Shown piece by piece: positions 38,278-40,731 of a DNA stretch of 64,000 nucleotides (the first letter of the stretch is position 1; each line of letters starts with the position of its first letter). The notes under the pieces were generated by a model that was given only the letters and a program-made list of their open reading frames with translations, was not told where the DNA came from and ran no database searches. Origin of the DNA: an uncultured Pelagibacteraceae bacterium (lineage in GTDB: Bacteria; Pseudomonadota; Alphaproteobacteria; Pelagibacterales; Pelagibacteraceae); NCBI GenBank assembly GCA_902627565.1, contig CACOJM010000002.1, positions 1 through 64,000 on the forward strand, written 5' to 3'. Both the position numbers and the translations under genes were made by a program.

Positions 38278-38993
38278 TGAAAATTCTATTGTATACTCAT
38301 AGTGACTATTCTTGGGTATGGGAATATTGGCACAAACAAACTGATAAATTTTTAAATGTCTTTGAAAAGATATGTTTATTAAATTCAAATTCATCATTTA
38401 GAGAAGATTATCTTGTAATTAAATATGATGACAAACTGACATACAAAAATAGAATCCTTTCATGCTTAGATAATATTGATGATGATGAAATTGTCCTTTT
38501 TTGTCATGAAGATATGTTTTTATACAAAAAACCTAATTTTGAAATAATAGATGAATACATCAACTTAATCAAAAGTGGCAATTGTGAATTGATTAAGTTA
38601 GTCAGAGCTTTTGAAAATTTAGATAAATCAAATATACATGATAAACTATTTAAAAACCCTGATAAGCAATTATTTTCAATACAACCGACACTTATCAAAA
38701 TTAAGTCCCTTAAATATATTTATAAAACAGTTCCAGGGGATAATATTTGGGAGTTTGAAGCTAATACCACAAAAGAATATCTTAAAGATTTAATTTCATT
38801 ATGTTCATTTGATTTAAACCAGGATAAAAAAAGAGGAAAGTTTCATTATGATAGTTCTGTTTATCCTTATATTTGTACTGCGGTAATTAAAGGTAAATGG
38901 AACTTTAAAGAATATAAAAAAGAGTTATATGAAATATTTTATAATAAAAAATTCAACATCTTTTCCTACTACTTGTCTAAACTTAAATTTTAA
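38277..38993 (+). CDS. Hypothetical protein, possibly glycosyltransferase-like
   Basis: 238 aa ORF overlapping hom stop by 1 nt (TAATG); no confident family; DDDEIVLFCHEDMFLYKKPNFEIIDEYI is weakly GT-like. Confidence 0.5.
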   Translation: MKILLYTHSDYSWVWEYWHKQTDKFLNVFEKICLLNSNSSFREDYLVIKYDDKLTYKNRILSCLDNIDDDEIVLFCHEDMFLYKKPNFEIIDEYINLIKSGNCELIKLVRAFENLDKSNIHDKLFKNPDKQLFSIQPTLIKIKSLKYIYKTVPGDNIWEFEANTTKEYLKDLISLCSFDLNQDKKRGKFHYDSSVYPYICTAVIKGKWNFKEYKKELYEIFYNKKFNIFSYYLSKLKF

Positions 38994-39936
38994 TTTTATT
39001 TAATGCATTGTTTTTAAATAAATTCGCCTCTTGAATATATCTTCTAACCATTTGAGTTGTCTTATGACCTGTCATTGCCATAATATTTCTTTCTTCAGCT
39101 CCAAACTCAGCTGCTGTGGTAGCAAATCCTGACCTTAAACTATGACCAGCATATTTTGAACTATCCAAACCAGCTTTTTCTGTGTATCTCTTAATTATTA
39201 AAGCTACAGATTTATCTGAAATTTCAAAAACTCTTCCTTTATTGTCGCCTGAAAATTTATGTTTAATGTATTCTTTAAGTGCTATAACTGGACAAAATTC
39301 ATTATTATCAAAGTAGGGGATAGCTTTAATAGTTCCTTCTCCAGATTGATCTGTTTTAGACCTTTTTATTAATATTTTTACACCTTCATTAACAAATTCT
39401 ATATCATCATACTCAATATTCACTAATTCCGATCTTCTAAAACCGCCAGCAAATCCTATTAATATTAATGCTTTATCTCTTAATTTATTTTGACCCTTAA
39501 CTTTGCCTTCAACAAGGTTTTTTGTATTAATTGTTTCCTCATTTAATACTTTAATAATCAATTTTAAATCATTGATTAATATTGGTTTTTTAGCTTTTTG
39601 TCTTGAACCTAATGTTCTTTTAATCCCATGCAAATTCTCCATTATTATAGGATGTTTTGTATCCAAGTAATGCCCTTTTAGTTTATGAATGACACTTATT
39701 GATGCTATTCTACGTTTTAATGTACTAAATTTTGCTGATTTAGAGAGATTAGTTATATAAAAAGCAATAATTTTAGGCTGAGTTGGTAAAGAAGAGAATC
39801 CATTTTTAGTACAAAAAAATGAGAAGTCCTTGAAGTCTGATTGATAAGCTCTAAGTGTGTTATTAGATTTAGAATTTTTTAAATTTTTTAATGTTTCAAT
39901 TTCTAAGCTTTTAAGGTCTGTAATTAGATCACTCAT
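38983..39936 (-). CDS. Tyrosine recombinase (Cre/Xer-like site-specific integrase)
   Basis: SAM-like N-domain NTLRAYQSDFKDFSFFC; GFAGGFRRSELVNIEYDDI, GHSLRSGFATTAAEFG, MAMTGHKTTQMVRRYI: R…HxxR…H…Y catalytic set. Confidence 0.92.
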   Translation of the reverse strand: MSDLITDLKSLEIETLKNLKNSKSNNTLRAYQSDFKDFSFFCTKNGFSSLPTQPKIIAFYITNLSKSAKFSTLKRRIASISVIHKLKGHYLDTKHPIIMENLHGIKRTLGSRQKAKKPILINDLKLIIKVLNEETINTKNLVEGKVKGQNKLRDKALILIGFAGGFRRSELVNIEYDDIEFVNEGVKILIKRSKTDQSGEGTIKAIPYFDNNEFCPVIALKEYIKHKFSGDNKGRVFEISDKSVALIIKRYTEKAGLDSSKYAGHSLRSGFATTAAEFGAEERNIMAMTGHKTTQMVRRYIQEANLFKNNALNKIKI

Positions 39937-39942
39937 ATAAAT

Positions 39943-39967
39943 TTCCGATAACCATTAATTATCGGAA
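39943..39967. repeat. Perfect 9-7-9 inverted repeat, candidate recombinase or operator site
   Basis: TTCCGATAA-CCATTAA-TTATCGGAA, 6 bp upstream of the recombinase start codon. Confidence 0.75.
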
Positions 39968-39996
39968 GTTATATAATAAGTGATTTTCAAAGTCAA
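39968..39996 (-). promoter_or_regulatory. Candidate sigma70-like promoter for the recombinase
   Basis: Minus strand TTGACT (39996-39991), N17, TATAAC (39973-39968), immediately followed by the inverted repeat. Confidence 0.6.
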
Positions 39997-40013
39997 GATG
40001 ATATTTTAAGATT

Positions 40014-40277
40014 ATGAAAAAAATATTATCTATTTTATTTCTAACTTTTGTCTTATCAAACACATCTTATGCAGATACATATTCTGGAACATCATATAAC
40101 TGGTCGACTGGTGAGTATAACAATGTGGATGTAAGCTTTAATGGATCTGAACTTGAGGTTTATAACTATGATACTGGCAATTATGAATGGCACGATATTG
40201 ACTCAAATAATGGAAGTGGATCATTTGAGACATATAATTGGCAAACAGGTGAATTTAACACTGTTGATCTAGATTAA
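40014..40277 (+). CDS. Small secreted repeat protein of unknown function
   Basis: Signal peptide MKKILSILFLTFVLSNTSYA; three degenerate YN[WY]xTG[EN][YF]…D repeats. Confidence 0.7.
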   Translation: MKKILSILFLTFVLSNTSYADTYSGTSYNWSTGEYNNVDVSFNGSELEVYNYDTGNYEWHDIDSNNGSGSFETYNWQTGEFNTVDLD

Positions 40278-40278
40278 T

Positions 40279-40455
40279 ATGGGTTCAATTGACGGAGAAA
40301 TTCCAGCAGTATGGTTTTTAATTAGCTCGATAGGTTTTGTTATATTGACTTTTATTCAATATCGAAACACAGGAAAGAGCTTTAACACGATATTCTTGTC
40401 TATAATGGCTATTATATTCTTAGTAAGTTACATAATTCTATTAATTCCACGCTAA
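40279..40455 (+). CDS. 58-aa putative two-TM membrane micro-protein (not in supplied ORF track)
   Basis: ATG 40279 to TAA 40453-40455: MGSIDGEIPAVWFLISSIGFVILTFIQYRNTGKSFNTIFLSIMAIIFLVSYIILLIPR; two hydrophobic helices. Confidence 0.55.
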   Translation: MGSIDGEIPAVWFLISSIGFVILTFIQYRNTGKSFNTIFLSIMAIIFLVSYIILLIPR

Positions 40456-40461
40456 AAATCA

Positions 40462-40731
40462 GTGCAGGGAACAAAGTTTCAATTAAAAGTCTGGAAATAC
40501 CTTAAAACTATACCAAAAGGTGAGGTAAAAACCTATAAACAGGTGGCTATTGGCATAAAAAGCCCTAAATCGGCTCGTGCTGTAGCTAATGCTTGTGCTA
40601 AAAATCCATATGCTCCAAAAATACCCTGTCATAGAGTGATTAGGTCCGATGGAGCTCTTGGAGGTTACTCTGGCAGAGGTGGAATTAGGCAAAAGCTCAA
40701 ATTACTTAGATCTGAAAAAGTAGAGATTTAG
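40462..40731 (+). CDS. MGMT-type methylated-DNA-protein cysteine methyltransferase domain protein (GTG start)
   Basis: FQLKVWKYLKTIPKGEVKTYKQVA…PKIPCHRVIRSDGALGGYSGRGGIRQKLKLL; active-site PCHRV. Confidence 0.9.
   Translation: MQGTKFQLKVWKYLKTIPKGEVKTYKQVAIGIKSPKSARAVANACAKNPYAPKIPCHRVIRSDGALGGYSGRGGIRQKLKLLRSEKVEI

Follow-up and report, generated by a model that had tools for sequence, protein, structure and literature searches.

A probable single-recombinase chromosome-dimer-resolution module at the replication terminus of Pelagibacteraceae

In the present study, we describe a tyrosine recombinase gene and, directly upstream of it, a palindromic site, which together very probably form a single-recombinase chromosome-dimer-resolution (dif/Xer-like) module of the family Pelagibacteraceae, derived from Cre-like resolvases of plasmids. 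The pair was found in a stretch of 64,000 nucleotides (the window) from an uncultured Pelagibacteraceae bacterium (GenBank assembly GCA_902627565.1, contig CACOJM010000002.1, positions 1 to 64,000). SAR11 bacteria are the most abundant bacteria of the ocean, and XerC/XerD-dif is the system of most bacteria. Carnoy and Roten reported in 2009 that Pelagibacter ubique is without a dif/Xer system (PMC2731167), and no other work linking Pelagibacter with dif and Xer was found among the papers searched. Dimer resolution in bacteria without XerCD was named as an open question by a review of 2017 (PMC5357621).

Results

The recombinase gene lies on the minus strand at positions 38983 to 39936, starts with an ATG at 39936 and encodes a protein of 317 amino acids. 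Pfam assigns to this protein a Phage_integrase domain (PF00589, 1.7e-19) and a SAM-like N-domain, and 25 orthologs share all six catalytic residues (R167, K194, H265, R268, H291 and Y300) without variation, which bears out the preliminary description of a Cre/Xer-like recombinase with the full catalytic pattern. It is the sole PF00589 protein of the window genome. According to NCBIfam, the protein is not XerC or XerD (61 and 69 bits against cut-offs of 335 and 330), not archaeal XerA (70.3 bits, NF040815 cut-off 220) and not XerS (57.7 bits, NF003462 cut-off 267), which is also longer, with about 355 amino acids; the tyrosine-type invertases of the same collection gave a weak match (35 bits against a cut-off of 222). 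When a structure model of moderate confidence (pLDDT 70, TM 0.5) was searched with Foldseek, Cre-loxP complexes came at the top (E 1e-9) and XerA, XerH and XerD below them. A search of IMG/VR with the window recombinase gave no viral relatives, and the phage matches to it were five, all weak.

The perfect inverted repeat described earlier was confirmed at positions 39943 to 39967, 6 bp upstream of the start codon. It is a 9-7-9 palindrome that reads TTCCGATAA TTAATGG TTATCGGAA on the gene strand (minus) and TTCCGATAA-CCATTAA-TTATCGGAA on the forward strand, and we propose the name difP for this dif/lox-like site. Its asymmetric 7-bp central region, TTAATGG (39952 to 39958, minus strand), is by analogy with Cre and Xer the putative strand-exchange region. 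The 25-mer is unique in the 1.03-Mb window genome with three mismatches allowed, and its arm pattern with a variable spacer did not occur in 100 shuffles. Since relatives have arms with a few more bases (A-type sites 10-11 bp, B-type sites 13 bp, see below), the real site should be about 27-33 bp in length, and we take roughly 31 bp as its size. The palindrome was also considered as an intrinsic terminator and rejected, because it is located upstream of the gene that it would end.

Directly at the site, and likewise on the minus strand, we read from the sequence a -10 box, TATAAC (39968 to 39973; TATAAT in relatives), and 17 bp from it a -35 box, TTGACT (39991 to 39996; TTGACA in relatives). 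A generic promoter scanner did not list the -10 box at 39968 to 39973; the pattern TTGAC[AT]-N-TATA was found upstream of the site in 140 of 151 relatives. Because the -10 box abuts the site, transcription would be expected to start within or beside it, and a regulatory role in addition is possible, in which the recombinase bound at the site may repress its own gene.

The repeat travels with the recombinase gene. The core motif GATAATTAAWKGTTATC was found in 42 of 101 related genomes, once in each and beside the gene, and these 42 are exactly the members of the genus with the recombinase; the motif occurred nowhere else in the 101 genomes, and its backward-read control gave no match in them. 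Furthermore, a stricter site pattern was scanned over 84,980 GTDB species genomes and gave at least 119 matches. Among the matches listed, the recombinase lies directly downstream in the same orientation in 118 of 119, the remaining match ending at a contig edge just past the first codons of the recombinase, and 80 of 80 titles belong to SAR11 or SAR11-type single cells. The conservation of the repeat beside orthologs, which had been proposed as a check, was thus found. The site and gene are present in all sampled Pelagibacteraceae genera, and 151 pairs from six genera were collected. In all of these the gene is on the same side of the site, 4-21 bp from site to ATG, in agreement with the earlier claim of a lox/dif-like cognate site beside the gene.

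None of the Pelagibacteraceae genomes that are at least 96% complete is without the recombinase gene. Both gene and site are absent from 19 of 61 same-genus draft genomes, mostly 55-90% and up to 95% complete, which we attribute to missing terminus contigs, with real loss possible in some. Two drafts of about 90-95% completeness without the recombinase and site (G056, C7:21360-21830, and G039, C72:104339-104761) carry an integrase of another kind in a frame of 464 aa. No genome with two sites, thus no lysogen at the site, was seen in the 101 related genomes scanned.

The site lies at the replication terminus. In the closed chromosome of G012 (1,343,202 bp), the cumulative GC skew has its maximum at 615,774 and the site is at 617,610-617,626, 1.8 kb apart. 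For the contig that holds the window, the cumulative skew is highest at 38,931, and the site lies 1.0 kb away. The offsets in six further contigs or segments were 1.1, 1.2, 0.6, 2.8, 1.5 and 11 kb, so that in seven of eight the site is 0.6-2.8 kb from the cumulative GC-skew maximum, the exception being G054 with 11 kb. In addition, the TA-skew minimum was within 2.8-3.9 kb of the site in all eight contigs or segments. The Fisher combined p for the terminus offsets was about 3e-8, to be read with the partial dependence of the contigs through local synteny; since neighbouring genes are partly conserved, the measurements are not fully independent. The KOPS-like motif GGGNAGGG has a polarity of 13:1 towards the site, and permuted G-rich motifs are equally skewed. 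In G146, the site was located at 998,842-998,858.

In 11 closed Pelagibacteraceae genomes, there was no protein with a score at the level of XerC or XerD. Eight of the 11 have exactly one PF00589 gene, and the extra ones in the other three are unrelated integrases. A sister SAR11 family has two PF00589 genes, which score as XerC (300-314 bits) and XerD (314-324 bits); the Pelagibacteraceae proteins reach 56-72 bits with the XerC model and 66-82 bits with the XerD model. The gamma domain of FtsK was detected in 50 of 61 same-genus genomes, the window genome included (G000:C5), and it has the helix motif GYNRAARI, as in E. coli FtsK.

We found that both the site and the protein occur in two allotypes. 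All 151 site/gene pairs have the inner arms GATAA/TTATC, and 149 of them have TTAATTG or TTAATGG as spacer, while the outer arms are either A-type, TTCC...GGAA (41 sites), or B-type, TA(A/G)Y...AATAGT (110 sites). Among 148 distinct proteins, every B-type recombinase carries Q242 and, behind residue 237, a loop of 12 aa (RRFSKGxxLTxK), and every A-type recombinase is without this loop and has K242. The 41 A sites are paired with loop-less K242 proteins and 107 B sites with proteins that have the loop and Q242, with zero exceptions. The window recombinase is A-type; its K242 codon is at 39211 to 39213 (minus strand), and the loop is absent just before it. Residue 242 is the start of helix 241-254 in the structure model, and this helix should, by homology with Cre and XerD, occupy the major groove. 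When the loop was left out, a tree separated A from B recombinases, with modest support (88 and 92). A single genus can nevertheless hold both types, a sign that the module may be exchanged as a unit. In genus g5, two species (G144, locus L405, and G141, locus L406) have opposite allotypes. In the locus of G144, the B-type site has an unusual spacer, TTTATTG, and the loop of the protein diverges (RKISKSEKLLEN); this locus and the opposite allotypes suggest module transfer or repeated switching.

Outside SAR11, the closest relatives are recombinases of plasmids, with 38-47% identity in full-length alignment, from Alicyclobacillus, Protochlamydia, Rickettsiales Ac37b, Sporosarcina, Iodobacter and Paenibacillus (L393-L400), and several of them adjoin toxin-antitoxin or ParAB genes. 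Seven of the eight plasmid relatives have an upstream palindrome with the core GATAA (or GACAA)-n6/7-TTATC, at a variable distance from the gene (-45 to -879), and three of the first five palindromes found score above every shuffled control. In this small sample, relatives with K/R242 tend to CC outside the core and those with Q242 to A-rich outer bases. Since the window recombinase is not XerC, XerD or XerS, and its nearest relatives are plasmid-borne with an upstream palindrome, XerCD seems to have given way in Pelagibacteraceae to a system of plasmid-multimer resolution. The family of plasmid recombinases is widespread, with 1,746 matching plasmid records.

The three divergent ORFs of the preliminary description were confirmed at 40014, 40279 and 40462, but the comparison of 148 related loci does not place them in a unit with the recombinase. 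The ORF at 40462, with an MGMT DNA-binding domain (5e-32), is the only one of the three with a known domain. The MGMT protein is conserved in 134 and the 58-aa protein in 86 of the 148 loci, and both genes belong to the usual conserved surroundings of the terminus locus. The ORF at 40014 to 40277 encodes a small exported repeat protein of 87 amino acids with YNWxTGEYN-like repeats, which has no match in Pfam, NCBIfam or PHROG and no detectable homolog in the 148 loci. A regulatory unit with the divergent genes was rejected, because the 87-aa protein is without homolog and the 58-aa and MGMT genes are without sign of joint function. The suggestion of a self-contained integrating unit did not hold either, as the module is single-copy, family-wide and chromosomal and lies at the terminus.

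Similar sites were also detected in viral sequences. The core site pattern matched 64 IMG/VR contigs, in many of which the A-type arms are complete, and the pattern of the B-type arms, its spacer left free, matched 46; a scrambled palindrome of the same make-up matched none. At least 18 viral contigs have an A and a B site in tandem at a distance of 26-37 bp, and most of their spacers are unlike those of the host. Good sites were present in 68 viral contigs; 57 of these also contain a terminase gene, which is never more than 0.9 kb away from the site. PF00589 was absent from 40 of 41 site-bearing viral records, many of which are fragments. Recognisable sites were found beside TerL in the phage isolates HTVC106P, HTVC100P, HTVC035P and Greip, and a degenerate site in HTVC024P. 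At the thresholds used there was no site near TerL in HTVC010P, HTVC034P, HTVC203P, HTVC204P, HTVC028P and Lederberg, and three relatives infecting other hosts and 60 shuffles gave no site. Core matches without outer arms in viral contigs such as L293, L304, L309, L320 and L328 were treated as chance.

Discussion

If the module resolves chromosome dimers, homologous recombination between sister chromosomes would produce a dimer with two directly repeated copies of the site, and four recombinase protomers would synapse both copies. Y300 would then cleave the DNA at the borders of the asymmetric 7-bp centre, and strand exchange would release two monomers, a reaction that the FtsK translocase probably licenses at the septum.

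A different role has to be weighed because the site abuts the -10 box and is within 4-21 bp of the start codon in all pairs. The palindrome could be an operator only, at which the recombinase or another regulator would repress the promoter, with recombination taking place elsewhere or never. We consider this unlikely, since an operator needs neither the asymmetric 7-bp spacer conserved in 149 of 151 pairs nor a location where the GC skew switches. For Cre and Xer it is established that conservation of an asymmetric spacer is to be expected in strand-exchange sites and not in simple operators, and by this analogy the SAR11 spacer would fit strand exchange rather than mere binding. Furthermore, most closed genomes are without a second candidate site or a second Xer pair, and the palindromes of the plasmid relatives do not keep a fixed distance from their genes.

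An integrated element, whether phage, ICE or integrative plasmid, with the pair as its integrase and attachment site is very unlikely. There is one site per genome with no flanking att pair, the module is single-copy in every near-complete Pelagibacteraceae genome, and the MGMT, 58-aa, EamA and hom neighbours are host genes conserved across loci; these observations stand against the annotation of the plasmid relatives as site-specific integrases and the two allotypes in one genus, which suggest that lineages exchanged the module. A DNA-inversion or phase-variation switch, in which the site would invert the promoter or a neighbouring segment, might be read from the weak invertase matches and the promoter beside the repeat, but it is the least credible of all and was rejected, as one site copy per genome leaves no segment to invert and none of the 151 pairs has the gene on the other side of the site.

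The dimer-resolution module can be compared with known systems. Single-recombinase dimer resolution has been described as XerS/difSL in Streptococcus and Lactococcus and as XerH/difH in Helicobacter and Campylobacter (PMC5357621, PMC2731167). Sites of such systems have inverted arms of about 11 bp, a centre of 6-8 (up to 11) bp and linkage to the gene, all of which are found in SAR11. As in XerS and XerH, there is one tyrosine recombinase with a palindromic site beside its gene, at the terminus, and an FtsK with a gamma domain. Unlike in these systems, the SAR11 site abuts the promoter of the gene itself and two co-evolved allotypes exist; the spacer is 7 bp against 11 bp in difSL and 6-10 bp in difH, and the protein differs from XerS in length and score. 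The XerL/dif system of Legionellales is also a single-recombinase system near the GC-skew maximum that was overlooked by earlier surveys, and its site was found through the integrated mobile element LME-1, mobile elements carrying a mimic of the site (PMC9765430). The SAR11 system shares with it the late discovery, the position and the site mimics on mobile elements, but its site and gene form a tight module and no lysogen was seen at the site.

The best fold match is Cre of phage P1, and the compact palindrome with a short asymmetric spacer resembles loxP; however, the SAR11 recombinase is chromosomal, family-wide and located at the terminus, with about 17% identity to Cre. Plasmid multimer-resolution recombinases are the nearest in sequence and have similar upstream palindromes. 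The proposed function, the inner arm motif ATAA/TTAT, the terminus position and the FtsK gamma domain are shared with XerC/XerD-dif, whereas SAR11 has one recombinase instead of two and symmetric arms.

If the dimer-resolution reading is true, the statement of 2009 that P. ubique is without dif/Xer falls, and in its place stands a one-gene, one-site replacement derived from plasmids. The question of dimer resolution without XerCD would become testable in SAR11, and the site would be a ready terminus marker for SAR11 genomes. The two allotypes would be a natural switch of protein-DNA specificity, and the phage sites would connect the maintenance of the host chromosome in a concrete way with the widespread pelagiphages.

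A wider reading is that abundant pelagiphages without an integrase, among them HTVC106P, HTVC100P, HTVC035P, Greip and numerous uncultured relatives, borrow the SAR11 resolvase, that a plasmid system replaced XerCD in the host and that the specificities of site and protein switched together (loop and K242/Q); taken as a whole, we hold this to be quite possible without favouring it. The tandem A and B sites of the phages would then serve whichever recombinase type the host has. With a spacer unlike that of the host, recombination would be confined to the phage copies, in circularisation or multimer resolution, and with the spacer TTAATTG, integration at the host terminus could occur. The IMEX phages (CTX-phi-like), which use the host Xer at dif, are comparable in that integrase-less pelagiphages carry the host site. 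The pelagiphage sites differ from these in lying beside tailed-phage terminase genes, often as tandem allotypes and with spacers unlike the host's, and no integrated pelagiphage copies were seen at the site. Tailed-phage loci with a site include L344, L290, L314, L318, L350, L364, L378 and L381, and those of isolates are L390-L392 and L435.
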